Counted from the stretch's first letter, positions 3,826 through 64,000 are shown. The stretch: DNA of 64,000 nucleotides from an uncultured Prevotellaceae bacterium (GCA_947305005.1 CAMZCM010000002.1:124001-188000); one strand, 5' to 3'. The notes: generated from the letters alone by a model not told the origin. Made by a program: numbers and translations.

Positions 3826-3888
3826 GTTTAATGGTAAATCTTGATAGGTGACCACTCCCTCCCTGATAGGGAGGGCGGGGGGAGAGTC
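3727..3888. repeat. Palindromic element pair spanning the DUF6057 gene start
   Basis: Outer ends gactctccccccgc / gcggggggagagtc; inner actccctccctgtgagggagggagt and actccctccctgatagggaggg. Confidence 0.9.
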
Positions 3889-3903
3889 TTGGTCGGTGTG
3901 TCT

Positions 3904-7119
<3,216 letters not shown>

Positions 7120-7194
7120 TTAGTTACACGTTTTTATGGTGCGAAGATACGGAATAAAGCCTTTCGCACCAAACTTTAAATGCTAAAACATAAT

Positions 7195-7237
7195 AAAAAA
7201 CGAATCGACTGCCTGAACGAAGTCAAACAGTCGATTC
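7195..7237 (-). terminator. Rho-independent terminator after the SusC/D-fasciclin operon
   Basis: GAATCGACTG...CAGTCGATTC stem followed on minus strand by GTTTTTTATT. Confidence 0.88.
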
Positions 7238-7284
7238 TTAAAATGTTATACTTACGAAACCGTTAGGGTTTCAGGTACATCATT

Positions 7285-9699
7285 TTATGGAAGTTTGAAG
7301 TACCAGTTGTCAGTATTTAACAGACGTGAGTAGAGAGCATTGTCGCGTGTACCGCTACGTTCAGATATCCTCTTAGCGACCTGCTCAACGCCCTTAGAGC
7401 CTCCAATCAAACGGCTGAAGCAGAGAAGGTCGAAGAAGCGGTTGCCTTCGAAGGCTGTCTCCAATGCCAACTCGTCAAGAATCAGGTTGGCGATAGCTTC
7501 CTGTACCTGACGCAAATTGCTGGGGTCATAAATTTCATCATAGTACATTGGAGTTGTGGCTCCTTCGTAGTTTGCCCTCATCTTATTGATTTGGTCAATG
7601 TAATTGTAGGTGGAGGACGTCTCCCAAAGTGAGAGGAAACCGCATCCACGCTCATGAATACCCATTGCCGGATTGCCTCCTATGTTAGTGGACACTTCTG
7701 TTAAACTGACCCTGCTTTCTGTGACTCCATACCACACGGCACGTGTATAACTTTCATCACCTCTCAAGAAAGATGTGTTGAAATTCAAGAAAGGAGCGCT
7801 CTTAGCTGCTTTCATTTCCCGCTTACTGATATAGTCGCAGACAACATCTCCAGTACCTATGTATTCAGCATAAGATAAGACCTTTTGACCCAAATCGTCT
7901 CTAATCGTATTAAAATATGTAGCGATTTCATCTGTGAAGGCAGCTTGGGCAGCATAGGCTGGATCGTCATAGTAAAGGTTACCTTCACGATCTGCTATTA
8001 AGAAAAGGTCGAATGCATTTGCGTCGGTTGGATCAATGTTGACACTAAATGTTACTCCCTCGTTCAGAGCACGCTGATACACATGATACAGCAGTAGAGG
8101 ATAAGCTTCATAGAAGGTGGTATCGGTTCCAACAATTTCTGTATCGTCCCAGTATTTGCAGTCATTCCCATAGTAATTGATGATCTGCCCGTCAAAACAC
8201 GTGTGTGTGTAGGTCTTTGGAGCTGGCGCATACTGGTCTTCTCTACTTGGAAGCCAGCTGGTAGCTCCAACAAGTCCGTGACGGAGGATAGCGAAAGCAT
8301 AGCCTGGGAAACCGGCACCATTCAAAGCCTGAGCATAGTGCAACCAAATGTTAGCCTTACGATAGATAACAGGATAGGTCGTGGTGAAGGCACCAAGCGG
8401 GTTCTGCTTGGTGACGAAGAGTTCCTGATCGGCACTACCGGACTTCACATCATTGTAGGTATCCGTCGTAGAGTAGTAGCGGGCATCACCTGCATTCTTG
8501 AAGACGGTACATACTGAAGAACCATAATTGCTACCTATATAGACTTCATAATCCTGTGACTTGTTTAGATTGATGTATGCCTTGGATGCATCTAACTGGT
8601 GCTGGAAGTTAGGCTCCAGACTGACGCTACCTGTACTGGTACTGTCCGCAGATACGCTTTGTGTCACTTCGAAACCAAAGAGTTCGCTGATGTCGCGATA
8701 CACTTCACCATAGAGTTTGTTCTTGGAACAGGGGATAATAGTGACGACCTCTTCGGTTTGGCTAGTCTTATTGGTGTTGTCCCAAAACATACCTGCACAC
8801 CAGTTGAAGTCATTTCTATAGTATTGTTCAGAACTTTCCATCTTTCTCAAGGAAACATAGTTTGTTCTGGGGAGAAGGATACCACCCTTTTCTGAATTCA
8901 GGAAGTTGTAATAGTACTGTGCTGCCTGACGGTAATCAGCTTCAGAACCTGCGCCATTAGCTTTCAGCAACCAGATGTCACCCAATACGACATCCTGTGG
9001 GAAGATGCACTTGGAAGAATGGGCAATGACTTCCTTGTAACCGTATGTCCCATAGTTAGGATAGGCAATAACGCGAAGGGAGTCGCCGGCTAACACCGTG
9101 GGAACGTGTCTAACCTCGTCCACTTTCTTTGCAACACCGCTAGTAGCTAAAGTATTAGCATCAACATATGTGGTAGCTTTGCGGAAGTCTTCCATATCTG
9201 CGGTGGAGAGCATGGGGGTCTCAAAGTATGGTACACGACCATAGGCAAGAACCAACTGCAGATAAGCCCATGCACGAATCGTCACAACCTGCGAGTATTC
9301 ACTGAGCATCAAAGGACGGTTCAAACCAGAGAGTGCAGCCGTGTCGCAACGCTGAATGTAGGCGTTGCAGGAATTAATGACATGGTAGAAGTCTGCGGCC
9401 TTGAGGAATCTGTTAGAACCATCGGTTCCTGTGAACTCCAAGATGGAACTGATGGAGTCGCTGGTATATTGAGAACCATCCACCAAGTCGCCACGACATT
9501 CACCTAAAATCACATAGCGTTCAGCTATACGCTGTAGGCTCTTCTGAATGCCCCAATAGCTATAGAGCGTATCCGCAGCCACTTCTTCAATGCCTACATT
9601 ACGATCCATGTCGCCTGTAAGCATGTCCTCGCAGGAGGAAAAACCAAATGTAATAGTCAGTGCGAGGAGAATAATAGATAAGATATTCTTTTTCATCAT
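7285..9699 (-). CDS. RagB/SusD family outer-membrane lipoprotein
   Basis: 804 aa; lipobox FGFSSCEDML; C-terminal LILDELALETAFEGNRFFDLLCFSR; next to a SusC-like gene. Confidence 0.88.
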   Translation of the reverse strand: MMKKNILSIILLALTITFGFSSCEDMLTGDMDRNVGIEEVAADTLYSYWGIQKSLQRIAERYVILGECRGDLVDGSQYTSDSISSILEFTGTDGSNRFLKAADFYHVINSCNAYIQRCDTAALSGLNRPLMLSEYSQVVTIRAWAYLQLVLAYGRVPYFETPMLSTADMEDFRKATTYVDANTLATSGVAKKVDEVRHVPTVLAGDSLRVIAYPNYGTYGYKEVIAHSSKCIFPQDVVLGDIWLLKANGAGSEADYRQAAQYYYNFLNSEKGGILLPRTNYVSLRKMESSEQYYRNDFNWCAGMFWDNTNKTSQTEEVVTIIPCSKNKLYGEVYRDISELFGFEVTQSVSADSTSTGSVSLEPNFQHQLDASKAYINLNKSQDYEVYIGSNYGSSVCTVFKNAGDARYYSTTDTYNDVKSGSADQELFVTKQNPLGAFTTTYPVIYRKANIWLHYAQALNGAGFPGYAFAILRHGLVGATSWLPSREDQYAPAPKTYTHTCFDGQIINYYGNDCKYWDDTEIVGTDTTFYEAYPLLLYHVYQRALNEGVTFSVNIDPTDANAFDLFLIADREGNLYYDDPAYAAQAAFTDEIATYFNTIRDDLGQKVLSYAEYIGTGDVVCDYISKREMKAAKSAPFLNFNTSFLRGDESYTRAVWYGVTESRVSLTEVSTNIGGNPAMGIHERGCGFLSLWETSSTYNYIDQINKMRANYEGATTPMYYDEIYDPSNLRQVQEAIANLILDELALETAFEGNRFFDLLCFSRLIGGSKGVEQVAKRISERSGTRDNALYSRLLNTDNWYFKLP

Positions 9700-9708
9700 A
9701 ATGCCGTA

Positions 9709-12700
9709 TTAGAGGTTGATGGATAAGCCGATATTGAAGCTACGTCCCAATGATAACAAACCGGTATCGATACCTTGGTAAAGCACACTGTTTCTTGCGC
9801 TGGTCTCAGGATCAGTACCCCAGTACTTAGTAAATGTGAGAAGGTTGTTGCCTTCACCCCAAACTCGTAGTCCCTGAATGAACTCATTGCGTACGGGAAT
9901 AGTGTAGGTGAGGCGGACATTCTTGAGCTTCAAGTAGCTGCCGTCTTCAATCCAACGGTCAGACATACGCTCGTTGTTACGCCAGTCCTCACTATCGATG
10001 TAGCAGACCTTAGGCATGTCAGTTTTTTGGCCCTCATGCGTCCAGCGGTTCTGCATTGCTGTTGTCTGGTTGTACGTTGTGTTGCCACCTTCCAAAATGG
10101 AGCGCTGGTAGTTATAGACATCGTTACCCAAAGAGTACTTAAAGTTGACATCCAGTCGGAGATTCTTCCATGTCAAGTTGGTGAAGATGTTGCCATAGAT
10201 GTCCGGATTCGGGTTACCGATAGCCACCTTATCCTTGTCATCAATGACACCGTCGCCGTTCTGATCTACGAAACGTATGTCGCCTGCTTGGAAGTTGTCG
10301 TATGGACGGTTCTTGATACCAGTGGGGTATTTGAGATAACCCAGAGCACCGGCAGTGCTGGCTTCTGCATCATTGGCTAGAACACCGTCCGTCTGCCATC
10401 CAAAGAACGTACCGACAGCATAGTTCTCAGCGGTGAGAATGTTCTCAGTTCCATAGATGCTATTGGTGTAGCCATTGACCAGTTCCCCACCAACATAGAT
10501 TTTTTCATTGAGATCAGGCAACTTGGTGATGGTGTTGGTGTAGTGACCGACACTGGCGCCAATTTCCCATTTCAGGTTCTTGTTGTTCAGCAGGGCTGCA
10601 TTGGCACGGAATTCAAAACCACGGTTCTTCAATTGACCATCGTTGATCCAGTACTTGCCCAAACCGGAGATGTAATCAATATCTTTCATGGTGAGCAAGT
10701 TGTCGGTTGTATTCCAGAAGAGATCTACACCTGCATTCAAACGGTTGTTGATGAACGAACCTTCCAGTGCCAAGTTGATACGCGTTGTTGTTTCCCACTG
10801 GATGCTGGTATTCTCAATGTTCTTCAACACCAGACCTACGGTATTCTCTGTCACACGCTGGCTTTCCCAATAGGTACGTGCAGCGTAGTAGTCGATGCCG
10901 TCATTACCACTTTGATCAATACCTGCTGTTAATTTCAGGTAATTAACACCCTTGCCGGTCTTGAACCATTTCTCGTTGGAGATCAGCCAACCTACTTGTA
11001 CTCCAGGGAAGACACCCCAACTCACACCACCGATATGAAGACCATCCTTAGTTTCCTTACCGAAGCGGCTACTGGTTTGGGCTGCTACTGAGAACTCAGC
11101 GAAATACTTGTTCTGGTAGTTATAATCTGCATGGAGATAGTAAGTCATGTCAATCCAGTTATCCTTGGTTCCGCCATAGTTGACAAACGCCATGTTCTTC
11201 TTAATATCTGGCAGTTTATCGTTTTCGTTGTTGTAACCGCGAATGTAGGAATAACTATAATTGTAATTGTTGTAGCGGAAACCTCCAAAGGTTTTGATGG
11301 TATGAGCCCCGTAGTTGTTGCCCCATTCAATGCGGAAGTCGTTGTTGATGCTGGTTTCCTTCGTGAACTGTGACTTCAGGACGGATGAAATCTTACCCAT
11401 GTCCTTCAACATGTACAAAGTCGTACCGTTGATGGGGAGGAAGTATTTTTCATTATTACGGTTCAGCGTGTAGTTGAAACGGTCGCTGATGGCGAGCTGC
11501 TTGGTAATCTGATACTTCGGAGAGAAGTTGATATTAATCTGAGTCAGCTCGGCATAGTTCTTATTCACACCTTGTCCGTTCTCCAGAATCCAATACGGGT
11601 TACGTAGGCTCTCATTGATATCGGGATCCAATTCGTTGGCAAATTGGAAGGGATTCTGAATCCACTGTCCTAAACTGCTTGATGCAGCATATTTACCGGC
11701 ATAAGAATCAGATAGCTCCAGACGTCCTGTTGCTTCACTATGATAATAGGCATACGGAGAGAGGATAGGAGCCTGTAACAGACCTAAGACATTGGTAGAA
11801 CCGATATTCTGCATATCGTAATTCTCGCTCCAGCCGTTGTCCAGAACATCGTAGCTACAGCGGTTGTAGGCAATATCCAGACCGGACTTCACCTTTTCAA
11901 AGATCTGAATGTCGGTGTTGAAGCGGAGGTTCAGACGGTCGAAGTCATTTCCTTTCAGAGTTGATTGACCATTGGTATATCCGAGGGAAAGCGCATACAT
12001 ACCAATCTCATCACCACCTTCTACGCTCAACTTATAATTCTGGGTCAAAGCGGTTTGGTATAGGTCTTCCTGCCAGTCGGTATTGTTGTGGAAAACCTTA
12101 TAATAGTAGTTGCTGCTTTCCGGTGCATCGTTCAGGAATGCGTATTTGTTGAGGCTTGCAGAAGAAGACTCACGCACTTCCTTGATGGTACCAGACAGTT
12201 CACTGACGTAATTGCGATAAGCCTCACCATCCATCATTTGGATGCGTTTGGGCGCAAATTCCAGACCTGCATAAGCACGGGCGCTAATCTTGGTTGCCAT
12301 GCTGTGACCACGTTTTGTCGTGATGATGACCACGCCATTGGCACCCTTGGCACCGTAAAGCGCAGTACCGTTCTTCAAGACTTGTACGCTCTCTACGTTC
12401 TCGGGATCCAAACCAGCCAGAATGTTGTTATAGAAACCTTCGTGAAGACTGGTACGCTCTTCTTCTAAATCGACCATGTTGCCGTCAATGATGAATAACG
12501 GTTGAGTGGAGGCTTTCAAAGAGTTGATACCTCGGATGTTGAAGAAGGCTCCCTGACCGAGCAAGGCACTACGGTTAATAGAATGGATGTCACCAGCCAG
12601 CTGATTCTGCATATCGGTCTCGATACTGATGGAACTGGTTTCGTCAAGTTTCATCGTTCTTTCCGAAACGATGGTCGTTCCGTCGGTATAATAGCTGCGG

Positions 12701-40557: not shown

Positions 40558-41469
40558 TTATTCTTTTCCATTCCAGAATTCCCAACTTGCGATGGCTTGC
40601 CGGTGTAGCATTTCCAAACCGTTCTTGACTACGGCGCCGTAGCGACGTCCTTGTCGCATGAACAGCGTGATGTCAGGATTATAAACCAAGTCGTAAAGGA
40701 GATGGCGCGGGGTAAGCGCATTATAGGGGATATCGGGACAACTATCTACGCGTGGGTACATTCCCAGTGGCGTGCAGTTGACGATGACGGTGTATTCTGC
40801 TAACAATTCGGGAGTGATGTCAGAGTAGGTGAAGGGACCCTCGGGAGAACCCTCGGGAACGGTAACAGGAGAACCCTCGGGGACGGTAACAGGAGAACCC
40901 TCGGGAACAGTAACAGGAGAACCCTCGGGAACGGAAACGGGTCGGTTGCGACTGACATAGCGCCATTCGATGCCGAGCTTTTCTAGCCCATGACAGATGG
41001 CTTTGGAGGCGCCGCCTGTGCCGAGAACTAATGCCTTTTTATGGTGCGGTTGCAAGAGCGGACGGATGCTGTCCATGAAACCGATGATGTCGGAGTTAAA
41101 GCCCTTAAGCGTCCATTGCCCATCGTTCTTCGTACATTTTATGACATTGACAGCCCCGATAGCGCGTGCTTCGTCAGAGAGGTCGTCAAGATAAGGGATG
41201 ACGGCCTGCTTATAAGGGATGGTGACGTTCAGACCGCACAGATCAGGATGCTCGTTCAATAGCTGTGGCAACTGTTCGATGGATGGCAGCTCAAAGTTGA
41301 GATAATCCGCATTGATGCCCTCACGTGCAAACTTCTCTTGAAAGAAAGCACGTGAGAAACTATGCCCGAGGGGATAGCCTAAGAGGCCATATAGGATAGA
41401 AGACTCTCCCCCCGCCCCCCCTATCAGGGAGGGAGCAGATGCTATTTGAGATGATGTTTTTTTTGCCAT
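40558..41469 (-). CDS. aroE: Shikimate dehydrogenase carrying two different repeat-derived inserts
   Basis: 303 aa; LLGYPLGHSFSRAFF, GLNVTIPYKQAVIPYLD, LGTGGASKAICHGLEKLG, VNCTPLGMYP; inserts APSLIGGAGGES and (VPEGSPVT)n. Confidence 0.94.
   Translation of the reverse strand: MAKKTSSQIASAPSLIGGAGGESSILYGLLGYPLGHSFSRAFFQEKFAREGINADYLNFELPSIEQLPQLLNEHPDLCGLNVTIPYKQAVIPYLDDLSDEARAIGAVNVIKCTKNDGQWTLKGFNSDIIGFMDSIRPLLQPHHKKALVLGTGGASKAICHGLEKLGIEWRYVSRNRPVSVPEGSPVTVPEGSPVTVPEGSPVTVPEGSPEGPFTYSDITPELLAEYTVIVNCTPLGMYPRVDSCPDIPYNALTPRHLLYDLVYNPDITLFMRQGRRYGAVVKNGLEMLHRQAIASWEFWNGKE
40838..40949. repeat. 24-bp minisatellite, copy in aroE
   Basis: gaaccctcgggaacggtaacagga units; encodes VPEGSPVT on minus strand. 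Confidence 0.95.
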
Positions 41470-41547: not shown

Positions 41548-42297
41548 TTACTTGGTTGCTAAATACATCGTTGATAATCCGAAGGTGAAACGCTTGAACT
41601 GCACTTCGCTGAAACCGCAACGACGAAGCATCGGAGCGAGGATTTCGGCCTGTGGAAATGCCTCCATTGTGCGGGGCAGGTAGGTGTAGGCGCTGTCGTC
41701 GTGGCTAATGAGACGACCGATAAAAGGCATCACCGTGTGGGCGTAGATATTGAACAGCTGCTTCATGGGGAAGCGAGGTGGGGTGGTGAGCTCTACCAAC
41801 ATCAGGTGTCCTCCGGGCTTCAGTACGCGGCACATCTCACGCAGTCCGGCTTCGAGGTCCTCGAAGTTACGGGCACCATATGAGACGGTAACGGCATCGA
41901 AGCTATTGTCATCGAAGGAGAGGTCGGTGCAGTCATCTTTCGAGAAATAGATGACGTTGTCAAGGCCTGCAGCCTTCACCTTTTCGCGTCCCACTTCCAT
42001 CATCCCCTCGCTGATATCCACGCCGATGATACGATCAGGGTCGAGGCGTCGGGCGGCAAGAAGAGCGAAGTCACCTGTGCCTGTGGCGATGTCCAGTATC
42101 ACCTGTGGCGCAAAGGGCTTCAACGCGTCAATAGCCTTACGGCGCCAGCGTCTGTCTATGCCGAGAGAGAGCGTGTGGTTGAGGCGGTCATAGGTAGGGG
42201 CGATGTGGTTGAACATCGCTGCGATAGCGGACTCTCCCCCCGCCCTCCCTATCAGGGAGGGAGCATAATGTGTTGGAGAATATGTGTTCCTATTCAT
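41548..42297 (-). CDS. menG: Demethylmenaquinone methyltransferase
   Basis: 249 aa; [68 protein letters not shown]-term [12 protein letters not shown] insert. Confidence 0.95.
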
Positions 42298-46159: not shown

Positions 46160-48538
46160 ATGAAAAAATTCTACGCTTTTCTTGTTGCCTTGTTCGCCTT
46201 ATTCGGTGTGGCACAGGCACAAACAATTACATTTGATGCGACCACAGACGTGTACGGGACTGATAAGTCCAAGACAGGTGCTATGTCCATTGAAAAAGAT
46301 GGAATTACGATAGCTATCACGGGTGGTACTTTGGCTAATACCACTGATTATCGTATTTACAAGAACCAGACAATCACGATTTCGTCAACTAGTGCCATTG
46401 AAAGCATTGTGTTTACTTGTACGGCAAGCGGTACTTCCCAGTATGGTCCTGGCTGTTTCGAGGCGCAGGTTGGTTATTCCTATGATGGTACTACGGGAAC
46501 TTGGTCAGGCTCTGCAGTTTCTGTAACATTTAAGGCTTCTACCAATCAGGTTCGTGCTAAGTCCATTGAGGTGACGTTAAAGAACTCTGACCCAAACTAT
46601 GTTAAAACTCCGAAGATTACACCTGCAACGGGCACCTATTATGAAGCTCAGGAGGTGACGATTGAGAAGGAGGATGGTACGAGGGTCTTCTATACTCTTG
46701 ACGGTACAGAACCTACAGCATCGAGCACAGCCTATACAGAACCCTTCACTGTGGAGGCTACCACGACCGTAAAAGCAATCGCTTTCAAAGGTGAGAATAA
46801 GAGCGAGATAGCTGAGAGCATCATCACCATTGCTGAGTTGTCGGCCAAGACCATTGCTGAAGTGTTAGCTGCTGGCGCTGGTGAAGCAAAAACTTCTGCT
46901 ACGGTGGTGGCAGTCGCTAGTACAGGTGTGTTGTTGCAGGATGCAACAGGCTTCATCTTTAAATATACTGGCGGAGTTCCTGAGGTGGAGATAGGTGACG
47001 TGGTAACTGTGTCAGGTCCTACCTCTGAATATGGCGGACGTATCCAGTTCACCGAAAATGGAACGATGACGAAGACGGGTACGGCAGACGTTACCTATCC
47101 TGATCCCACTGTTCTTGACGCTACCGCCTTTGATGCCCTTGTTGGCAATATTGAAGTGAAGTATGTGGAAGTCAGTGGTGCCATTTCAAGCGTCGGCAAT
47201 TATAATAATTTCAAAATAACAGGTGCAAAGAATACGGGTTCGGTCATCGCTACAGCTGATAAGCTCGGTCTATTGGAAAAGGATGCACCTGTAACGATTA
47301 CGGGTTACTTCATCTATGTAACGGGAACTAGTACGAAGTATGGCACGATTATTGCCACTAAGATAGAACTTCCAGAAGTCGTTTACACGGAATACAATAC
47401 CCTTGCTGACGTAAAGGCAGCTGCTCCTGCCGATGAGGCCTCTGCTATTTATGCTCAGTTGAATATCACCGACATGCTGGTCAGCTACGTGAATGGTCAG
47501 AGTGTCTATCTCTTCGATGGCACCGACGGTATGCTCGTATTTGGTACCAATAGCAAGAATTTGAAGACTGGTGATAAGATTAGCGGCGCTATCAAAGGTA
47601 AACTCTACAAGCGCTATGGCAATACACAGCTGGCAGTGACCGCCTATGATGTGACGGTTAGTTCTTCTGGAAATACTGTTGAGCCACAGGTTGTTAACCC
47701 TGTAGCTTTCAATGCGAATGGTGCCGCATACGAGAATGAGCTGATTACGCTTCAGGGGCTTGTTCCCAATGCTGAGGCGCTGGCAGATAAACTCATTACC
47801 TTTAGCTATGAGGATGATGACGAGGGTGAGAAATACACCTTCACCGTTCGTGATAACTTCGGTGTTGCAGCAAGTATTGCATTCAATAAGACTGCAGCAT
47901 ATAATGTTACCGGTTTCGTCGCTATCTATACGAAAGATGGTGCGACTACCATTCAAATCTATCCTCGTGAGAAAGCTGATATTGATGATGGCGTCGTTTA
48001 TCAGTTCACAGGCGATGGTTCACTCGAGAAGCCCTATACTATTAAGGATGTTCAGAATATGAATTCCGAACATGCATCTGAGGGCGTTTGGGTGAAGGCT
48101 TACATTGTGGGCTACATCAACGGTCAAAGTTTGAATGCTACGACAGCAACCTTCAGTGCTGAGGCTCCAGAAGGCGGTGAAGTGCTGGCAAGCAACCTCC
48201 TTGTTGCCGATGATGCCGGAGCCAACACCTTGGCTGCCATCATTCCTGTAGCTCTTCCGAATAATGCCGATGCCCGTAAAGATCTCAACCTGAAAGACAA
48301 TGCTGGCAAGTTGAGTACTCAGGTTTGGCTCAAAGGTAATATTACGACTTACATGGGCGTTATGGGCTTGAAAGAGGTGAAGGTCTATAGCTTAGATGGC
48401 GTCAACATTGTGGATGGTGTCGCAGGCGTTGAAGCAGCTCCTGTAAATCAGGCTGTTTACACCCTCGATGGCATTCAGGTGAAGGCTCCTAACAAGCCGG
48501 GTCTGTACATTATCGGCGGCAAGCCCTTTATCAAATAA
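46160..48538 (+). CDS. Large secreted protein with chitobiase-like and OB-fold (DUF6359/DUF5689-like) domains
   Basis: 792 aa; signal peptide; VFYTLDGTEPTASSTAYTEPF; TGVLLQDATGFIFKYTGGVPEVEIGDVVTVSG; C-term VYTLDGIQVKAPNKPGLYIIGGKPFIK. Confidence 0.7.
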   Translation: MKKFYAFLVALFALFGVAQAQTITFDATTDVYGTDKSKTGAMSIEKDGITIAITGGTLANTTDYRIYKNQTITISSTSAIESIVFTCTASGTSQYGPGCFEAQVGYSYDGTTGTWSGSAVSVTFKASTNQVRAKSIEVTLKNSDPNYVKTPKITPATGTYYEAQEVTIEKEDGTRVFYTLDGTEPTASSTAYTEPFTVEATTTVKAIAFKGENKSEIAESIITIAELSAKTIAEVLAAGAGEAKTSATVVAVASTGVLLQDATGFIFKYTGGVPEVEIGDVVTVSGPTSEYGGRIQFTENGTMTKTGTADVTYPDPTVLDATAFDALVGNIEVKYVEVSGAISSVGNYNNFKITGAKNTGSVIATADKLGLLEKDAPVTITGYFIYVTGTSTKYGTIIATKIELPEVVYTEYNTLADVKAAAPADEASAIYAQLNITDMLVSYVNGQSVYLFDGTDGMLVFGTNSKNLKTGDKISGAIKGKLYKRYGNTQLAVTAYDVTVSSSGNTVEPQVVNPVAFNANGAAYENELITLQGLVPNAEALADKLITFSYEDDDEGEKYTFTVRDNFGVAASIAFNKTAAYNVTGFVAIYTKDGATTIQIYPREKADIDDGVVYQFTGDGSLEKPYTIKDVQNMNSEHASEGVWVKAYIVGYINGQSLNATTATFSAEAPEGGEVLASNLLVADDAGANTLAAIIPVALPNNADARKDLNLKDNAGKLSTQVWLKGNITTYMGVMGLKEVKVYSLDGVNIVDGVAGVEAAPVNQAVYTLDGIQVKAPNKPGLYIIGGKPFIK

Positions 48539-48689: not shown

Positions 48690-51600
48690 ATGAAACAGTT
48701 TGTAAGATATATACTTCTTGCCTGCGCATTCTTGATAGCGTGTGCCATGAGTGCGCAAAGTGTTGATCTCGTTTCCTACTATGCTGCAGCCAACGGCAAG
48801 AAGAAAGCAGAGCTGAAGACAGCCATGTATCACATTATTGGTAATCCGGAGACCCAAAGTTATGGCTCACTTTGGTTCTATTATTACCAAACTGACCGTT
48901 TGCCCGATAATCAGGTGATTGACCGCTATAGCAACGTGAAACGTTATTTCAGTGAGAATGACGGAATTGCTGTCAGTGGAATGAACAAAGAACATGGCAT
49001 AGCACAGTCTTGGTGGGGTGGAGGTACTGATACCAAGCAAGGCTGTGACCTGCATCATGTGATGCCCAGTGATATTGAAGCTAATGGTAAGAAGAGCAAC
49101 TATGGAATGGGCGTGGTCACAAGCGTTGATTGGGATAATGGCTCCATCAAGGTCGGAAGCGGTAAAGCTGGTAATAATGGGATTGTTCCGTTGTGGGAGC
49201 CTGCTGATGAGTGGAAGGGCGATTTTGCACGAGCCTATTTCTATATTGTCACTTGCTACGAGGGTGTGTCACTCATTCAGAAACAGGGAGCTAACTCCAT
49301 GCAGGATAATACCTATCCCAAACTGCAGCCTTGGGCCTACCAGCTTTATCTGAAATGGGCAAAAGAAGATCCCGTCAGCGATTTGGAACGAGCACGCAAT
49401 GAGGCTGTCTATCAAATCCAAGGCAATCGCAACCCTTTCATCGATTATCAGACGTTGGCCGAATATATCTGGGGAGATAGCATCGACTATGCTTTCGATG
49501 TAAGCGGAGGACATGGCATCGATCCTATTCCAGGTCCTCAACCTGTGATTCCTGACAGCCTCAGCATGATTCTTGCTGATTTCACAGAACAACCTGCAAC
49601 GGATTATGATTTCACAATCGTCAATGCTCAGGGCGATATTTCCAACGTTTGGGCCAATAGCAAGAATTATGGCATGGTGGCTAATGCTTACAACTTGGGG
49701 AAAACAGGTGATGAATGGCTGATATCGCCCGCTATAGACCTTGCAGAGATGCAGGGTGCTACGTTGGAATTTACTCATGCCACTGGCTACAATGCCACGA
49801 ATGATCCTGCACAGATGTTTGAGGTGCTGGTATCAGCTGATTTTGAGTCTGCCTCAGCTCCCTCGGCTGCTACATGGACAGCACTTCATCCCAATTGGCC
49901 GGAGTCTGTCAGCAGTGGTTATACAAAATTTGTCTCTTCTGGTAAAATCAGTCTTGACGGTTTCGCCGGACAGTGCATCAATGTCGCTTTCCGCTATCAG
50001 GCAGATGCGTCACGCTGTTGGGCATGGGAGGTGAAGGATGTCACTCTCAAAGCAAAACGGAAGACAAAGACCGATAGTATTGCCGACTATTATTCCTCTG
50101 CACAAGGTTTACGAAAGGCGGAGCTGAAAACGGCTCTCCACCATCTTATCCAACCAGCTATGGTGTTGACCTATGGTGGCAAGGGTGAAGGCTATACATG
50201 GTCAGGCTTTGCTAAGACTGATGTACTGCCTGATGGCTATGTACGAGACCGCTACAGCAACATCCAACGCTCGTTCAATGGCTTGCAAGCTGTTGATGGA
50301 ATGAATATTGAGCATATTTGGGCTAACTCTTGGTGGGGACATGTGAAGAACAACGCTTATTGTGATTTGTTCAACCTCTATCCCTCAGATGCCAGTGCTA
50401 ACCAACGCAAGAGCAATAATCCTATTGGCATCGTAGATGGTAGTATCTCCTTTGATAATGGTGTCACGAAAGTAGGAAAGAGTAGCAGCTATCGTACTGA
50501 TAGCCTGATTACGGCATGGGAGCCGGCTGACGAATGGAAAGGCGACTTTGCACGTACCTATTTTTATATGGCTACCGCTTATGAACATATGATCGACTTG
50601 TGGCAGACAACTGAAGGATTGCTAACCGTGGACCCCTCTGCTTCATGGCCGTTAATGCGTCCCTGGGTCTATCAACTGATGCTCGAGTGGGCTAATGCCG
50701 ACCCTGTGGATGATATTGAACGTGAACGTAATGCTGCTATTTATGCTATTCAAGGCAACCGCAACCCATACGTAGATATGCCGCAGTTGGCACAGTATGT
50801 ATGGGGTGACAGCACTGAATACGCCTTTTATATCAATCCATCTGCTACTACGCCTGAATTGTTTGTTCCTCGTCATGGCACCGTGTTAGACTTGGGGCTC
50901 CAGTCTTTGCAGACGGAGATGAATCATAAGATAGCTGTTCGTGGCCGCAACCTCAAAGGTGGTTTGACCGTTCGCGGAGAAGGTGATGGCTTTGAGGTGT
51001 TGCCCACGACGTTCTCTGCCGATGAGATCCAAGCGGGAGCCGCTATTACCGTTCGCCGTACTGCAACCGAAGTGGGCACCTATACTGCCACTCTCACATT
51101 GAGTGATGGGAACGGCCTTACTCATTCTGTGACATTACAGATGGAGGTTATGGATGGTATTCCGGCATACGAGCCTTCCAATATCGTCTGTAGTATTAAT
51201 GAACAGAGCTTCACCGCCCGATGGAAGGATATGGCATTGACGGACGGTGCGACTTATTCTCTTGATGTTTATACGAAAGATGAAGGAGGTACGCGTACGT
51301 CGGTTAGCGGTTTTCCTGTTACCACTACTGACACCGCCTATGTCGTTTCAGGTCTGAAAGCATCTACGACTTACTATTATCAAGTTTCTAATTCATCATT
51401 CAACAGCAATGAAGTGCGAGTAGATATGCCTGCCGTGAAGCCTGTTTTCTCTGTGTCAAAATCTTCTGTCGCACTGACAGCTCTCCCAGAAGAACCTTCA
51501 CGTGAGATGAAACTCTCCGTCACCACACTTGCCTTCTTAAAATATGAGGTCAGTGTCTCCTGTCCTTCTCCTTTTGAAGTGAGTGCTGATGGTGAGAATT

Positions 51601-52352
51601 GGACGAATGAACTCCTTCTAACTACTTACAATCCCTCGTTCTATGTACGTCTTGGAGCTGTAGCAACAGCGGGCATTTATGAGAACGAAATGATTCTGAC
51701 GGCTCCTGATGTGGATGAACTCGTCGTCAGTCTCTCGGCTGTGGTTGATGAGAACAAGGCTTTCTTTGAAAACTTTGAAAGTGGCACGAAGACGGGTTAT
51801 GCCGAAGGAGTTGTTACCTGTAATGCAGCTGCCTGGACGCTGGCTAACGCGCTGATAGCAGCTGACGGTAACGCCAGAGACGGGCACTGCGTAAGAATGA
51901 AGATTGGTGGTCGTTTGGAGATGAACGAGGACAAGCCTCAGGGTTGCGACTCCCTCTCTTTCTATGCAGGCCTTTATAATAAGGACACAAAAGCCAAACT
52001 TACGGTCTCTTATTCCCTTAACGGCGGCTTGACTTGGACGCCCGTTGTTGAGGCGCTTGCCTTCAAAAGTGGTGAATTTAACCGCTACGTTTATCCCATC
52101 CAGCAGGACGGCCTTATCCGCTTGCGCTTTTCTACTCAGGAAGGTAATGAGAGCCAGCGTCTGAACATAGATGATATCCAGATGAGTAACTATGTCGCTG
52201 GTAATGCACTACGTCTGGTGGAACAGGATTGTAATGTTGACACTGTCGTCTATACCTTAGATGGTCGTCCTATGGGAGATCGCCTACAGACACAACGCGG
52301 TTTCTACCTTATTCGTCAAGGTGGTAGTGTCCGTAAGATTATTATCAAGTAA
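48690..52352 (+). CDS. Secreted protein with two endonuclease I-like domains, anchor-J-like module and C-terminal Ig/FN3-like modules
   Basis: 1220 aa; EHGIAQSWWG...CDLHHVMPSDIEANGKKSN and EHIWANSWWG...CDLFNLYPSDASANQRKSN. Confidence 0.85.
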   Translation: MKQFVRYILLACAFLIACAMSAQSVDLVSYYAAANGKKKAELKTAMYHIIGNPETQSYGSLWFYYYQTDRLPDNQVIDRYSNVKRYFSENDGIAVSGMNKEHGIAQSWWGGGTDTKQGCDLHHVMPSDIEANGKKSNYGMGVVTSVDWDNGSIKVGSGKAGNNGIVPLWEPADEWKGDFARAYFYIVTCYEGVSLIQKQGANSMQDNTYPKLQPWAYQLYLKWAKEDPVSDLERARNEAVYQIQGNRNPFIDYQTLAEYIWGDSIDYAFDVSGGHGIDPIPGPQPVIPDSLSMILADFTEQPATDYDFTIVNAQGDISNVWANSKNYGMVANAYNLGKTGDEWLISPAIDLAEMQGATLEFTHATGYNATNDPAQMFEVLVSADFESASAPSAATWTALHPNWPESVSSGYTKFVSSGKISLDGFAGQCINVAFRYQADASRCWAWEVKDVTLKAKRKTKTDSIADYYSSAQGLRKAELKTALHHLIQPAMVLTYGGKGEGYTWSGFAKTDVLPDGYVRDRYSNIQRSFNGLQAVDGMNIEHIWANSWWGHVKNNAYCDLFNLYPSDASANQRKSNNPIGIVDGSISFDNGVTKVGKSSSYRTDSLITAWEPADEWKGDFARTYFYMATAYEHMIDLWQTTEGLLTVDPSASWPLMRPWVYQLMLEWANADPVDDIERERNAAIYAIQGNRNPYVDMPQLAQYVWGDSTEYAFYINPSATTPELFVPRHGTVLDLGLQSLQTEMNHKIAVRGRNLKGGLTVRGEGDGFEVLPTTFSADEIQAGAAITVRRTATEVGTYTATLTLSDGNGLTHSVTLQMEVMDGIPAYEPSNIVCSINEQSFTARWKDMALTDGATYSLDVYTKDEGGTRTSVSGFPVTTTDTAYVVSGLKASTTYYYQVSNSSFNSNEVRVDMPAVKPVFSVSKSSVALTALPEEPSREMKLSVTTLAFLKYEVSVSCPSPFEVSADGENWTNELLLTTYNPSFYVRLGAVATAGIYENEMILTAPDVDELVVSLSAVVDENKAFFENFESGTKTGYAEGVVTCNAAAWTLANALIAADGNARDGHCVRMKIGGRLEMNEDKPQGCDSLSFYAGLYNKDTKAKLTVSYSLNGGLTWTPVVEALAFKSGEFNRYVYPIQQDGLIRLRFSTQEGNESQRLNIDDIQMSNYVAGNALRLVEQDCNVDTVVYTLDGRPMGDRLQTQRGFYLIRQGGSVRKIIIK

Positions 52353-57440: not shown

Positions 57441-57554
57441 GTGCTTTTCTGCGAAGTAACCAAACATTCTGACCTTTTTTTGTGCCTAGCCATTTATTTT
57501 GACACGAATGTAACAAAAATATGGCCATTGTTTGGGCTGTTCTCCACTTTTTAA

Positions 57555-57562
57555 TAACTTTG
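57555..57562 (+). promoter_or_regulatory. -7 box TAACTTTG upstream of the TonB receptor/nuclease cluster
   Basis: taactttg. Confidence 0.62.
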
Positions 57563-57615: not shown

Positions 57616-60336
57616 ATGACGAACAGGGTAAAGCTCGCTGTAGTGTTTGGGTGCTTTGCATCGGCCGTGCTAGCGCAGCAGCCGCAGATTCCGACGTCGC
57701 TGAAAGCAGAGACCAACGATGACAACGCGGATTTCACCTTCACAGAGTCGCAGCTTGATGAAGACAACGATGCCGCGCAAACGGTGTCGGCATTGGTCAC
57801 GACAAAGACTGACCCTTATCTGTCTAAGGTCGGTTATCTGTTCAGCCCGGTGCGCTTCCGCATTCGCGGTTTGGATAATCAGTACAATCAGACTTATCTC
57901 AACGGTATCATGTTCAATGATGCGGAGCGCGGACAGTTCAGCTATGCGATGATTGGCGGTTTGAACAATGTGGTGAATCCTAACCGTGAGGGCGCATCGG
58001 CATTTGAGACCAACACCTTTGGACTGGCATCCATCGGCGGAGCTACGAGTATCAATATGCGACCAGGTTCGCAGCGACAGGGCAATCAGATTACCCTCTC
58101 TGGATGTAACCGTAACTACGTGGCACGTGCTGCCTACAGCTACTCTTCTGGCTTCAATGCCGACGGCTGGGCGTTTTCTGGTGCACTCGGTTATCGTTGG
58201 GCCAAGGAGGGCTTTATAGAAGGTACTTTCTATAACTCACTCAGTTATTATCTCGGTGTAGAAAAGAAGTTAGGTGACCGTCATTCACTCTCTCTTATCA
58301 CCTTTGGTGCACCCACCGAGCGCGGCCAGCAAGGTGCATCCACGGAAGAGGCTTATTGGTTAGCTAATTCTCACTACTACAACCCGAACTGGGGTTATCA
58401 GGATGGGAAGAAGCGCAATAGCCGAGTTGTGCTTGACTATGAGCCGGTGACCATCCTCACTTGGGATTTCGATATCGATGAGAAAACCAAGTTGACGACC
58501 TCTGCGGGTGTCCGCTATTCCAATTATAGCAGTACGTCACTCGGCTGGAACGGCAATGCTTATGACCCTCGTCCGGATTACTACAAGAAACTGCCATCGA
58601 GCATCTTCAATGTCTATGACGATGATCAGAACAATGGCACGTATCTGGGACAGAACAAGTTCTTCTTAGAGCAGTGGCAAACGCTATACGATTACTGGAC
58701 GGCAGATAAGGCCAATCGTCAGGTGCAGTGGGATCAGATGTACTATATCAACCGCACGGAGGCGGCGAAAGGTGGTGAGGCTCTCTACTATCAGGAGCGT
58801 CGTCACAACGACCAACTGGTGATGGCACTGAACTCCACCCTGAACGGCTCGATCAACAAGGATAACAAATATACTGTCGGCTTCCAGTGGAACTCCACCA
58901 AAGGTATGCACTATAAGACGATGGCAGACCTTTTGGGCGCCGAGAACTATTATGACTATGACAAATTCGCTGCCAATGACTACGGTCGTAGCAGCACAGA
59001 GGCACAGAACGACCTGCGCAACCCGAACCGCAAGATTGGCGTAGGAGACAGATTCGGCTACGATTATAATATATATGTACATAAGGCGAAGGTTTGGGGC
59101 CAGTACGTCAGCCAGTGGAATCAGCTGAATTTCTCGTTCGGCGCCCATGTTGACGGTACGGTTTTCGAGCGTGACGGTTTGATGCAGAATGGTCGTGCAC
59201 CCGAGAACTCCTATGGCACCAGCGGTTGGGCTAAGTTCCTGCATGGTGGCGGTAAGTTCCGTTTTGCCTATGACATCACGCCTAACCATCGTGTCTCCCT
59301 TGCCGGCGGCGTGGAGAATGAGGCGCCGTTACCTGCCAATAGCTTCGTGGCACCTCGCATCCAAAATAACTACATCGACAATTTGGGTTTGGAGCACATC
59401 CTGAACGGAGAGGTGGCTTATGACTTCCGCTTCGGCCCGCTCACTGGTCGTGTGGCAGGATATATCACCAGTTTCCAGAACGGAGTGGAGCAGACGGCAT
59501 TCTATAACGACGACCAGTCGCGTTTCACCTATCTGACGATGAATGGTATCGAGCGTTTGCACTATGGTCTGGAGGCTGCCCTGAATCTGCAGATTACTCC
59601 TCAGCTGAGCATTCATGCCCTCGGTACCATCAGCGAGGCCAAATACACGAACAACCCGTTGGCGCAATTGAGTTATGAAGGAATGGACGCTGCTACCATC
59701 GCCAAAGTGAATACTTGGACACACAAGATGCCGGATGGAACACAGGTCACCGTCGATCAGCCATTGTGTGTCTATGCAAAGGATATGCACATGAGCGGTA
59801 CACCGCTGACAGCTCTCAATGTGGGAGTGAACTATAACGTCAATGGCTGGTACCTCGGCTTGGACCTTAACTATTACGACCGCGTGTATGTAGGCTTCTC
59901 GCAATATCGTCGTCTGTCCAATGTCTTGAATGAGTACAACGAGACGAGTGTCAGGGCTGACGGCACGCATGTCTTCGATAATGTGGATGCGGAGATGCTG
60001 AAATCCGATGGCGGTCTGCTCTATGACAGCGACGGCAATCTCCTTTATGCCTATGCTCCCGAACAGGAACGGTTCAAAGGTGGTTTCATGCTTGATGCTT
60101 CTATCGGCCGCAGTATTTACTTACGTCGTGGTAGCCTGAACATCAACCTCACATTGAGCAATATCCTGAATAATACGAATCTGCGTACCGGTGGTTATGA
60201 GCAGAACCGCGACGACCGCTACTACAATCTTGATGGTTCAGCAGGTGAAGCCAAAGCGTACAAGTTCTCCAAGAATGCCAAGTACTACTACGCGAATCCC
60301 TTTAACTTCTTCCTCAACATCGGTTATCGTTTCTAA
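57616..60336 (+). CDS. TonB-dependent receptor
   Basis: 906 aa; signal peptide; plug-like FRIRGLDNQYNQTYLNGIMFNDAERG; C-terminal FFLNIGYRF. Confidence 0.88.
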   Translation: MTNRVKLAVVFGCFASAVLAQQPQIPTSLKAETNDDNADFTFTESQLDEDNDAAQTVSALVTTKTDPYLSKVGYLFSPVRFRIRGLDNQYNQTYLNGIMFNDAERGQFSYAMIGGLNNVVNPNREGASAFETNTFGLASIGGATSINMRPGSQRQGNQITLSGCNRNYVARAAYSYSSGFNADGWAFSGALGYRWAKEGFIEGTFYNSLSYYLGVEKKLGDRHSLSLITFGAPTERGQQGASTEEAYWLANSHYYNPNWGYQDGKKRNSRVVLDYEPVTILTWDFDIDEKTKLTTSAGVRYSNYSSTSLGWNGNAYDPRPDYYKKLPSSIFNVYDDDQNNGTYLGQNKFFLEQWQTLYDYWTADKANRQVQWDQMYYINRTEAAKGGEALYYQERRHNDQLVMALNSTLNGSINKDNKYTVGFQWNSTKGMHYKTMADLLGAENYYDYDKFAANDYGRSSTEAQNDLRNPNRKIGVGDRFGYDYNIYVHKAKVWGQYVSQWNQLNFSFGAHVDGTVFERDGLMQNGRAPENSYGTSGWAKFLHGGGKFRFAYDITPNHRVSLAGGVENEAPLPANSFVAPRIQNNYIDNLGLEHILNGEVAYDFRFGPLTGRVAGYITSFQNGVEQTAFYNDDQSRFTYLTMNGIERLHYGLEAALNLQITPQLSIHALGTISEAKYTNNPLAQLSYEGMDAATIAKVNTWTHKMPDGTQVTVDQPLCVYAKDMHMSGTPLTALNVGVNYNVNGWYLGLDLNYYDRVYVGFSQYRRLSNVLNEYNETSVRADGTHVFDNVDAEMLKSDGGLLYDSDGNLLYAYAPEQERFKGGFMLDASIGRSIYLRRGSLNINLTLSNILNNTNLRTGGYEQNRDDRYYNLDGSAGEAKAYKFSKNAKYYYANPFNFFLNIGYRF

Positions 60337-61260
60337 ATGGTTAAGAGTATGAAAAACAAGAATATGATCTGGGCGATACTGCTCGCCATTTGTACCTTTA
60401 CCGCTTGCATGGATGAACACGATGCTCCCCCGACCGATGTTGATCCCGGTGCAACCAGCCCCACTTCGGTTGGCGAGGTGAATATGACCATCGATGACCT
60501 GAAGACCAAGTTCGTGGGGTATATGACGAAGAGTAATCTCTATGTACAGGTGGATGAAGACCTGATCTTTGAGGGTGTTGTCGTAGCCAACGACAAATCC
60601 GGCAATGTCTATCAGAAGATTGTCCTCAGCGAACTGACAACCGCTGGAACTATAGAGAGCATCAATCTCAATATCAAGAATACCAATCTCTTTGCTTATT
60701 TTCCTCTTGGGCAGGCTGTCCGTGTGAATCTGAAAGGATTGTGGATTGGTAACTACAGTCAGGTACCGACCATCGGTACACCTTATAAGACGAGTGCCGG
60801 CAACCTTCGCTTAGGCCCTATCCTTATGCAGGATTGCAGAACGCATGTGCAGTTGGTGGAAGGGCCTGATGAGGCTACCAAGCAAAAGCTGTTGACACCA
60901 CTGGTGGTGGATGACACGTGGCTCGGTACTTCTTCCAATTTCAGTATTCATAACTCGCCCATCCTTGTGACGATGGAAGGCCAGTTCCCGGAGGCTGATG
61001 GCAAGCGTATCTTCACGCCCAATGTCTCTTCTGCCGAAGACCCCGATAATGGTTACGATGCCGGTTATGCCCGTAACCGTACGCTGCAGGTGGGTTCTGT
61101 CAAGGTGCTTTCGCGTAATTCCACATGCAATGAAATCTCCCTTACCGTTATTCCTTCAGGGAAGGTTCGTGTCACAGGTGTCTTGACTTATTATGGCAAG
61201 GAATGGCAGCTGCAGATGCGTGACCTCAATGATCTGGAGATTCTTGAACCGCAGCAATAG
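60337..61260 (+). CDS. DUF5689-like (OB-fold) lipoprotein
   Basis: 307 aa; lipobox FTACMDEH; DLIFEGVVVANDKSGNVYQKIVLSE. Confidence 0.8.
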   Translation: MVKSMKNKNMIWAILLAICTFTACMDEHDAPPTDVDPGATSPTSVGEVNMTIDDLKTKFVGYMTKSNLYVQVDEDLIFEGVVVANDKSGNVYQKIVLSELTTAGTIESINLNIKNTNLFAYFPLGQAVRVNLKGLWIGNYSQVPTIGTPYKTSAGNLRLGPILMQDCRTHVQLVEGPDEATKQKLLTPLVVDDTWLGTSSNFSIHNSPILVTMEGQFPEADGKRIFTPNVSSAEDPDNGYDAGYARNRTLQVGSVKVLSRNSTCNEISLTVIPSGKVRVTGVLTYYGKEWQLQMRDLNDLEILEPQQ

Positions 61261-61301
61261 TCAACCTCATATTCATTCGTAAAATAGTAAATATCAGCTA
61301 T

Positions 61302-62915
61302 ATGAAAAAGTATTTTTCCTTCTTGTTGCTCCTGCTTTCAGGCTTTGCCTTTGTTGCCTGTGAGGATGTCCCGGAACCCTATGGCATTAACCTTGAGGCG
61401 GCAAAGAACGGTTCACTCGCTGAAGGACAACTGATCTATGAAACTTTTACTTCGGGGCTCGGCACTTTCCAAGTGAAGTCGCTCGTTGGCATGTATGCTT
61501 GGGCTTATGAGGGACACGGTTGCGTGCAAATCTCTTCATTTGAAAATAACACCAACAACGATGCGGATTCATATCTGATCTCTCCTGCTGTGACGTTGGA
61601 GGATAAGGCTTATCACCTGTCGTTCGAATATATTTTGCGTTATGCCGTAGAGAGCACGATGAAGAAGAATCACACGGTGCTCATCTCTGATAACTTTGAC
61701 AAAGATCCTGCCGCTGCTACTTGGACGGAATTGGAGTTTGAGCTTGAACAGGGATCCGATTGGGACAATTGGTTCAAGGCCGATATCAATATCCCCGACG
61801 CTTATCGTGGTAAGAAGGTGAATATTGCCTTCCGCTATATAGGTGACACCACGAAAGCGGCTACATGGGAGGTGCGCAAAGTGATGCTCGCTGAAGGTTC
61901 CGCCGCTGCGAAAGCCGATGACGTAGTAGGCGATGTCACCTTTTTCTCCGAGAGCTTCGCTTCGGGAGCCGGAGAGTGCACGACGCAAGATGTGGTTGTT
62001 CCTTCCGGTACAACGGGCATCTGGAAGTACGACTCTTCATATAAATGCATGAAAGCTACGGGTTTCATCAATAACACAGCTTTGGAAACAGAAGGTTGGC
62101 TCTATACTTCGCTGATTGATTTGCGTAAATCAACAGGTGCTTACCTCTCCTTCGAACATGCCTGCAATAAGTTTACCAACCCAATGTCTGAACAGGCTAC
62201 GGTTTGGGCGAAGGCCACGAGCGATGCCGAATGGACAAAGCTGACGGTGGAGAACTATCCCTCCAGCTGGACGTTCATCAAGTCGGGTAACATCAATCTC
62301 GAAGCCTTTGTAGGTAAGAAGATTCAGATTGCATTCAAATACACTAGCACCACAGCCTCGGCTGGTACCTGGGAAGTGAAGAACGTGAAGGTGACGGGCT
62401 TCGGCGAGGTTGGCTCCAATGGTTTCTCATGGGAAGACTTCACCAACGGCGACTTCGAGAGTTGGACATCAGATATTAAGCCTGCGGGCTGGCAAGATGA
62501 TACAGCTCTTGGTGATGCTGACTTGCAACGTAGCGAGGACGCTCATTCGGGCTCTTATTCGTGTCTTGTTGAAGGCTGGACAGGTGTCAGTCGTTACCTT
62601 GCTTACCAGCCGATGCAGCTCTCCGCTGGTACTTATACTGTTTCTTGCTTTGCCAAGTCTGCTACAGCTGATGTTGCCAAGCTGCGTCTGGGTTGTAAGG
62701 TGACGGGTGAGGAGAAGGAACGTGTGGAACGCGATGCTGCTGACAAGGCCGTATCTCATGAACTTGGCGCAACTTGGGAACAGTTCTCATTTACCTTTAC
62801 TCTTGCTCCCTCTGCCGACGGATCAGATTACTCAGTGGCGTTATTCTTCCGTAACATGAAGGATGCAGGTAAGGACTTGTTGATTGATGACGTAACGATT
62901 ACAAAGGCTCAATAA
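61302..62915 (+). CDS. Choice-of-anchor J domain-containing lipoprotein, two modules
   Basis: 537 aa; lipobox FVACEDVP; repeated SYLISPAVTLEDKAYHLSFEY / GWLYTSLIDLRKSTGAYLSFEHA blocks. Confidence 0.78.
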   Translation: MKKYFSFLLLLLSGFAFVACEDVPEPYGINLEAAKNGSLAEGQLIYETFTSGLGTFQVKSLVGMYAWAYEGHGCVQISSFENNTNNDADSYLISPAVTLEDKAYHLSFEYILRYAVESTMKKNHTVLISDNFDKDPAAATWTELEFELEQGSDWDNWFKADINIPDAYRGKKVNIAFRYIGDTTKAATWEVRKVMLAEGSAAAKADDVVGDVTFFSESFASGAGECTTQDVVVPSGTTGIWKYDSSYKCMKATGFINNTALETEGWLYTSLIDLRKSTGAYLSFEHACNKFTNPMSEQATVWAKATSDAEWTKLTVENYPSSWTFIKSGNINLEAFVGKKIQIAFKYTSTTASAGTWEVKNVKVTGFGEVGSNGFSWEDFTNGDFESWTSDIKPAGWQDDTALGDADLQRSEDAHSGSYSCLVEGWTGVSRYLAYQPMQLSAGTYTVSCFAKSATADVAKLRLGCKVTGEEKERVERDAADKAVSHELGATWEQFSFTFTLAPSADGSDYSVALFFRNMKDAGKDLLIDDVTITKAQ

Positions 62916-62919
62916 TCTT

Positions 62920-63849
62920 ATGAATAAGGTCCGTTTCTATATTCAAATCGTAGCGCTTGTTGTAGTCTCTCTTCCGCTGGTGTTCACAGCTTGCGGTGGC
63001 GATGACTACTATGACATGCCCAGTGATGTATCTTGGCGTGGTGCCGAGTCGGCAGAGGGTACGATTGTAACTACACCATACGAAGAGCGCATAGAAGTGC
63101 CTGCTCGTAAGGAAGGTAATACCTTTGTGGCCCATACGGTACAGTATGACGGCCATGAGGTATTGAACTACTGCGTAGAGTATGATCCCGTGAAGATGCA
63201 CTCCCGTTGGGTGGCCTTCCGCTTTGACGGCGACACACGTCCTCGCAATGTCTCGCGTAGCGATGAGCCGTTTGACGATGACCCGAAATTACCGGAATCC
63301 ATGCATATCGGTGCTCAGGGTTTCGGCTCCCCATACAATCGTGGTCATCTCGTAGCTTCCTATGACCGTCTCTTCTGCCAGGAAGCCAATGAGCAGACTT
63401 TCTATATGTCTAACATGTCTCCGCAGATTGCAAAGTTCAATTCTCCTTATTGGGCTAAACTGGAACGTATCGTTCAGAACCATGGGCGTAACACTTCTTT
63501 TGCTGACACGCTTTATGTGGTGAAGGGCGGTGCAATTGACAATGCTGAGGACTTGCTGGAGTATATCAGTCGTAGCAATGGCAAGCGAGTAGCAGTTCCC
63601 GGGCATTATTTCATGGCCCTGTTACGTGTCAAAGGTACGACCTATAATAGTATCGCTTTTTGGGTGGAACATGATAACTATGGTTATGCCGACGTGAACG
63701 ATGTCCCCAATTCCACGTTTGAACAACGTGGTCAGGTCAAGACCATCGATCAGCTGGAACAGCTCACCGGCATCGATTTCTTCCACAACCTTCCCGATGA
63801 CATCGAGAAGGAGGTTGAATCGACCTATTCCATCTCCCTATGGCTTTAA
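62920..63849 (+). CDS. DNA/RNA non-specific endonuclease, lipoprotein
   Basis: 309 aa; lipobox FTACGGDD; YNRGHLVASYDRLF, FYMSNMSPQIAKFNSPYWAKLE. Confidence 0.92.
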   Translation: MNKVRFYIQIVALVVVSLPLVFTACGGDDYYDMPSDVSWRGAESAEGTIVTTPYEERIEVPARKEGNTFVAHTVQYDGHEVLNYCVEYDPVKMHSRWVAFRFDGDTRPRNVSRSDEPFDDDPKLPESMHIGAQGFGSPYNRGHLVASYDRLFCQEANEQTFYMSNMSPQIAKFNSPYWAKLERIVQNHGRNTSFADTLYVVKGGAIDNAEDLLEYISRSNGKRVAVPGHYFMALLRVKGTTYNSIAFWVEHDNYGYADVNDVPNSTFEQRGQVKTIDQLEQLTGIDFFHNLPDDIEKEVESTYSISLWL

Positions 63850-63863
63850 ATGAACGTATCACT

Positions 63864-64000
63864 ATGAAAAAACATCTTTTCCTTAGCCTTCTCTTTTTCT
63901 GCACACTGACCGCAGTGGCGCAAAATGGACGTATAGGTATGTATGCCATCGGTTTTTACAATCTGGAGAATCTATTCGATACGGAACACGATGTGTTTGA
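63864..64000 (+). CDS. Endonuclease/exonuclease/phosphatase family protein, truncated by window end
   Basis: MKKHLFLSLLFFCTLTAVAQNGRIGMYAIGFYNLENLFDTEHDVF; FYNLENLFDT is typical of the N-term of secreted EEP-type proteins. Confidence 0.72.
   Translation, partial: MKKHLFLSLLFFCTLTAVAQNGRIGMYAIGFYNLENLFDTEHDVF

Follow-up and report, generated by a model that had tools for sequence, protein, structure and literature searches.

Five co-directional genes at the end (57616-64000) of a 64,000-nucleotide stretch of DNA from an uncultured Prevotellaceae bacterium, hereafter the window, probably encode a TonB-powered outer-membrane import unit for nucleic acid or DNA, and would represent the Bacteroidales variant of genes involved in natural transformation of Riemerella anatipestifer. 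The link between a Bacteroidales locus and the Riemerella transformation genes is new. It bears on the passage of DNA through the Bacteroidota outer membrane: the receptor, whose homologues had been reported for Flavobacteriaceae only, can now be followed through the Bacteroidales, and an EEP-type nuclease appears as a previously unrecognized third member of the unit. An unexplained mutant phenotype would thus become a phylum-wide, testable mechanism by which rumen, gut and oral bacteria take up genes or feed on DNA.

Organization of the operon

The five genes all lie on the + strand. The first three junctions are 0, 41 and 4 nt wide, and at the last one the genes overlap slightly. They follow a putative promoter with a -33 box, TTTG, at 57531-57534 and a -7 box, TAACTTTG, at 57555-57562. 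The window contains 7 matches to the full promoter pattern, where 1.25 would be expected, and none of 100 shuffled sequences had as many. These data bear out the first-pass annotation, which had described tightly spaced genes behind a single -7-like box. The same annotation had reported an EEP-type secreted protein cut by the window edge and proposed examining the sequence beyond 64 kb. There, the gene is intact and ends 910 bases further, at C2:188910, before a fructose-bisphosphate aldolase-like gene. All five genes are confirmed as real, and their order, given its conservation across the phylum, is not due to chance.

Features of the locus and of the tentatively associated genes upstream
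Feature	Position	Strand	Evidence
DUF6359-containing secreted protein, tentatively associated	46160..48538	+	PF19886 6.3e-27
Secreted protein carrying Endonuclease I (two domains) and anchor-J (one domain), tentatively associated	48690..52352	+	PF04231 8.6e-85, two stretches; NF038128
Bacteroidetes-type promoter of the operon	57531..57562	+	TTTG, 20-nt spacer, TAACTTTG; sequence
TonB-dependent receptor (906 aa), proposed channel for DNA import	57616..60336	+	AF2 fold, PDB fold matches, conserved neighbours
DUF5689 lipoprotein with lipobox TAC and acidic residues behind its Cys; proposed surface DNA-binding partner	60337..61260	+	PF18942 2e-38; NF052645 4.3e-23
Choice-of-anchor J lipoprotein, two anchor-J stretches; proposed surface accessory	61302..62915	+	NF038128 7.5e-29; NF052645 1.7e-17
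DNA/RNA non-specific endonuclease lipoprotein (NucA/EndoG/EXOG family)	62920..63849	+	PF01223 2.9e-39
EEP nuclease gene, start (356 aa; runs to C2:188910)	63840..64000	+	PF19580 (Exo_endo_phos_3) 1.2e-90

The architecture recalls SusCD polysaccharide utilization loci, in which a TonB-dependent transporter, surface lipoproteins and degradative enzymes are likewise combined in one operon. Unlike those loci, this one has nucleases in place of glycan enzymes, and its receptor carries no SusC Pfam signature. A search for SusD families across the five operon proteins gave no match (0/5), in keeping with the earlier claim that a SusD is missing. The operon also contains no pilin, PilQ secretin or pilus ATPase gene. 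The Flavobacterium PusCD system (PMC8115612) is similarly an outer-membrane import unit tied to phosphodiesterases, but it works with partners resembling SusD and with sigma/FecR regulators for low phosphate, and the present locus has neither. We found no evidence for phosphate control of the unit. The low-phosphate-induced TonB-dependent transporter Fjoh_3841 of F. johnsoniae, which has PF13620 only, as does the Riemerella receptor, was considered as a module receptor. This assignment remained unproven: in other Flavobacterium genomes, no PUSIII genes were seen among the module neighbours, although they would be expected some ten genes away.

Predicted properties of the encoded proteins

The receptor matched no family in Pfam or NCBIfam, the SusC-type signature included. 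Its AlphaFold (AF2) model (pLDDT 87.5), obtained with 66 sequences from the window and named genomes as input, adopts the plug-and-barrel fold of TonB-dependent transporters. All PDB matches listed for this model are TonB-dependent transporters (best E 1.6e-27), with SusC-type structures ranking lower. Judging from the model, the protein is a TonB-dependent transporter of a subfamily beyond the usual Pfam signatures, and the earlier call was right in spite of the missing Pfam signature.

The next two genes also proved to be what the first reading had proposed, an OB-fold DUF5689-like lipoprotein and a two-module choice-of-anchor J lipoprotein. The former, the only DUF5689 gene of the host genome, models as a tandem OB fold (pLDDT 90.5). 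Its PDB fold matches comprise Teb1, HIN-200 domains, SSB, RPA, BRCA2 and telomere end-binding proteins, i.e., mostly tandem-OB nucleic-acid binders, at TM-scores that are low, mostly 0.2-0.3 by query length. Net charge was considered as a sign of DNA binding. The protein is acidic instead (pI 4.75; family median 4.99), which is unusual for a DNA binder and was counted against the import reading. The two halves of NF052645 match the DUF5689 and anchor-J proteins (4.3e-23 and 1.7e-17), far under the subfamily cut-off of 475 bits. In 25 named loci, the third gene falls into one lipoprotein cluster, the sampled member of which carries the OB-fold nucleic-acid-binding domain PF01336 (3.1e-06).

In Bacteroidetes, acidic residues directly after the lipobox cysteine suggest export to the cell surface. 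A lipobox followed by such residues was found in 91/131 DUF5689, 41/47 anchor-J and 46/56 Endonuclease_NS family members. The EEP protein has a signal peptide without a lipobox. It is predicted to be periplasmic because a signal peptide is present but a lipobox occurs in only 8 of 119 family members. Its catalytic motifs are present, and the host genome encodes two EEP proteins of the PF19580-type family.

The fourth gene matches the DNA/RNA non-specific endonuclease family, as had been proposed, and its nearest solved relatives in the PDB are NucA, EXOG and EndoG. The catalytic His, the metal-binding Asn and a conserved Glu are invariant in 56 homologues; the first residue of the motif is N here and D in 36 homologues. 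Sequence searches for solved relatives of the receptor, DUF5689, anchor-J and EEP proteins returned nothing useful.

A DUF6359 protein and a protein with Endonuclease I domains are encoded by a gene pair 5 kb upstream of the operon. Relatives of the former adjoin the import module in L205, L232, L176, L195, L196, L209 and L212, and those of the latter do so in L205, L232, L038-L040, L064 and L069. Because relatives of both adjoin the module in L205 and L232, the pair may be part of the same import system.

Conservation of the unit in Bacteroidota

The first-pass annotation had called for a conserved-neighbourhood analysis, and this revealed an association kept across the phylum. Of 148 genomes sampled from the order, 77 had a receptor match, and about 65 of these were strong orthologues. 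The 80 named loci include those of Prevotella denticola, Segatella hominis, Hoylesella timonensis, Paraprevotella clara and Dysgonomonas capnocytophagoides. Using a simple ORF caller, so that neighbourhood counts are approximate, we found a DUF5689, anchor-J or related OB-type gene directly downstream of the receptor in 73/79 named loci and an EEP gene at most three genes upstream in 63/74, divergent in 62. Endonuclease_NS genes lie downstream in 48/70. Among 40 more distant Bacteroidales loci, the downstream lipoprotein was present in 37 and the upstream EEP gene in 31, and nucleases were found in 10 of 36. The gene order of the window recurs in its closest relative, L163 (74% identical), where a co-directional EEP gene again comes last. 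As the host genome has a single DUF5689 gene and two such EEP genes, their repeated adjacency to the receptor is not a matter of chance. L244 and L246 contain a second kind of receptor-DUF5689 pair, in which the receptor is paralogous, the DUF5689 protein is larger and an EEP gene is missing; the existence of such pairs weakens the import reading.

The search was extended to the phylum with NF052645, a family named after M949_1556, a Riemerella-type locus tag. In 19 of 20 sampled Flavobacteriales loci, members of this family directly follow a receptor that matches a profile built exclusively from Bacteroidales sequences, with an EEP gene beside most. Receptor orthologues are thus found in both orders, and the unit is near-universal in Flavobacterium (112/121). 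Surface nucleases are missing from the Riemerella locus and from most sampled Flavobacteriales loci. This distribution indicates that the unit is ancient, with a conserved core formed by the receptor, the DUF5689/anchor-J proteins and the EEP nuclease, and that the surface nucleases are its least conserved part, being lineage-specific additions.

Co-occurrence with com genes was uninformative. The host genome has both ComEC and DprA, but ComEC is present in 139/148 genomes of the order and, with HhH proteins, is near-universal whether or not the module is present; the receptor occurs in 6 of 9 genomes without ComEC.

Relationship to the Riemerella transformation genes

A transposon screen for natural transformation of the duck bacterium R. 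anatipestifer named a DUF5689 protein (PMC8459023, PMC8383284). There, RA0C_RS04915 is an outer-membrane barrel with PF13620 and RA0C_RS04920 a DUF5689 plus DUF5017 protein, and markerless deletion of either gene gave zero transformants, with a limit of ~4e-10 against 5.4e-5 for the wild type (PMC8459023, PMC8383284). These genes had no known competence proteins as relatives, and the authors reported neither DNA binding nor uptake for the barrel and DUF5689 proteins. Transformation efficiency was also reduced in tonBA and tonBB mutants (PMC8459023, PMC8383284). The authors attributed the tonBB effect to iron, and their explanation for tonBA was speculative. The tonB effects may be indirect; a TonB-dependent DNA receptor would explain them.

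With the Bacteroidales-only receptor profile, the receptor of Riemerella scored 761 bits (E 1e-230); scores of paralogues within the same order were 332-427 bits. The matching locus (L152, genome G397) contains comEC, two genes, an EEP gene, a divergent receptor gene and then a DUF5689 gene, the module (4436-10131) lying three genes from comEC. The step from comEC (RA0C_RS04895) to the receptor (RS04915) and the DUF5689 gene (RS04920) fits the published tags. The domains also agree with the published genes, i.e., PF13620 in the receptor, PF18942 plus DUF5017 in its neighbour and ComEC at 2.6e-57, and a Cas9-like gene is found nearby. This constitutes strong but indirect evidence that G397 is R. 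anatipestifer and that its receptor and DUF5689 proteins correspond to RA0C_RS04915 and RA0C_RS04920.

The window and Riemerella receptors share about 25% identity. In a tree, module receptors group by lineage, and a long paralogue branch lies near the Flavobacteriales clade with weak support, such that an interleaved paralogous clade cannot be fully excluded. Since this branch is weakly placed, orthology of the receptors is argued from profile scores and gene order.

Both units combine homologous receptors with DUF5689 and anchor-J sequences directly downstream and an adjacent EEP nuclease gene. However, DUF5689 and anchor-J/DUF5017 form one protein in Riemerella and are split into two genes here, and the Riemerella receptor has an additional N-terminal carboxypeptidase-like domain. 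The Riemerella locus has comEC three genes from its EEP gene and lacks a surface nuclease, whereas an Endonuclease_NS gene has been added here and the EEP gene is co-directional rather than divergent. In the available portions of the reports, the divergent Riemerella EEP gene, RA0C_RS04910 if the tags run in order, is outside the set of genes tested for transformation.

A model for import and alternative explanations

We propose that the DUF5689 and anchor-J lipoproteins would capture nucleic acid at the cell surface and pass it to the receptor, that pulling by TonB would open the plug and let DNA pass into the periplasm, and that the EEP nuclease would process the incoming DNA there. In this lineage, the surface DNA/RNA endonuclease of the operon would cut the substrate beforehand. 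That DNA is bound directly and moves through the barrel is inferred, as are the role of EEP and the use of the unit in this organism. The first-pass annotation had suggested that surface nucleases generate fragments that the receptor imports, in a PUL-like system for DNA/RNA or phosphate. The import part of this proposal is supported by conservation, by folds and by homology to the Riemerella genes; feeding as its purpose is conjectural. The surface nucleases are not part of the core, and all genetics available for the core concern natural transformation.

Import may serve nutrition, transformation or both in this organism. The Riemerella genetics point to DNA entry as such, and so does the conserved core. 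Nutrition in this lineage is favoured by the surface endonuclease, by the relatives of Endonuclease I and by a neighbour from the uridine kinase family. With a surface nuclease encoded in the operon, DNA destined for recombination would be degraded, which counts against the import model. In pneumococci, the EndA-type competence nuclease, a non-specific His-metal nuclease, works together with DNA uptake; this is a resemblance only, as EndA sits in the membrane and belongs to a Gram-positive system. Feeding and gene uptake can both be served by one gate. It is conceivable, as a tentative extension, that a TonB receptor, a tandem-OB lipoprotein and a periplasmic EEP nuclease form a general outer-membrane DNA route of Bacteroidota that replaces the type IV pilus, and that Bacteroidales of the gut and rumen also use it for transformation.

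A strictly nutritional role is unlikely, although several observations speak for it. Surface nucleases would cut DNA or RNA, the receptor would import oligonucleotides and periplasmic EEP would complete their conversion to a source of nucleosides or phosphate, with no gene uptake in the lineage. The frequency of Endonuclease_NS genes downstream of the receptor, the Endonuclease I and OB-fold lipoproteins at other loci and the uridine-kinase-family gene near EEP in 29 loci are consistent with feeding. So is the prevalence of the unit in Flavobacterium, a genus with a species reported as non-transformable in the condition tested; F. johnsoniae reportedly has all the homologues but could not be transformed in the condition tried, which also counts against the import model. 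Yet the surface nucleases are the variable part of the unit, and the phosphate-starvation data for F. johnsoniae list no DUF5689 lipoprotein.

We consider it quite improbable that the receptor imports another cargo, such as a metal, a phosphate ester or a cofactor, and that loss of transformation in Riemerella is an indirect consequence of nutrient or envelope state. Riemerella transformation does depend on iron, phosphate and peptone, the tonBB effect was ascribed to iron, and the acidity of DUF5689 would suit such a cargo. However, iron limitation causes a roughly 100-fold drop, and the two deletions brought transformation below detection; furthermore, the constant partners of the receptor are a nuclease and an OB-fold protein. 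Several secreted nucleases are encoded here and 5 kb upstream, as might be expected of a DNase locus that serves escape from biofilms or from DNA traps of the host and shares its operon with an unrelated receptor. This reading is hardly credible: conservation of the unit weakens it, since receptor, DUF5689 and EEP remain linked where a surface nuclease is missing, and EEP is predicted to be periplasmic. Import of nucleic acid through the receptor remains the preferred reading.

Repeats elsewhere in the window

A repeat of 30-33 bp that includes a short palindrome (CTCCCTGATAGGGAG...) is present in 41 genomic copies when up to 2 mismatches are allowed, as compared with 0 for the reversed control. 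Window copies lie at 3055-3087 (-), 3138-3170 (+), 3857-3889 (+), 41401-41433 (-) and 42229-42261 (-), with variants at 39473 (-) and 39602 (+). The repeats often form inverted pairs about 80-150 bp apart, and they are read in frame close to the N-terminus in two ORFs, 41548-42297 and 40558-41469. The latter, a shikimate-dehydrogenase-like ORF, also contains four copies of a 24-bp unit (40844-40938) that give rise to VPEGSPVT repeats in the protein.
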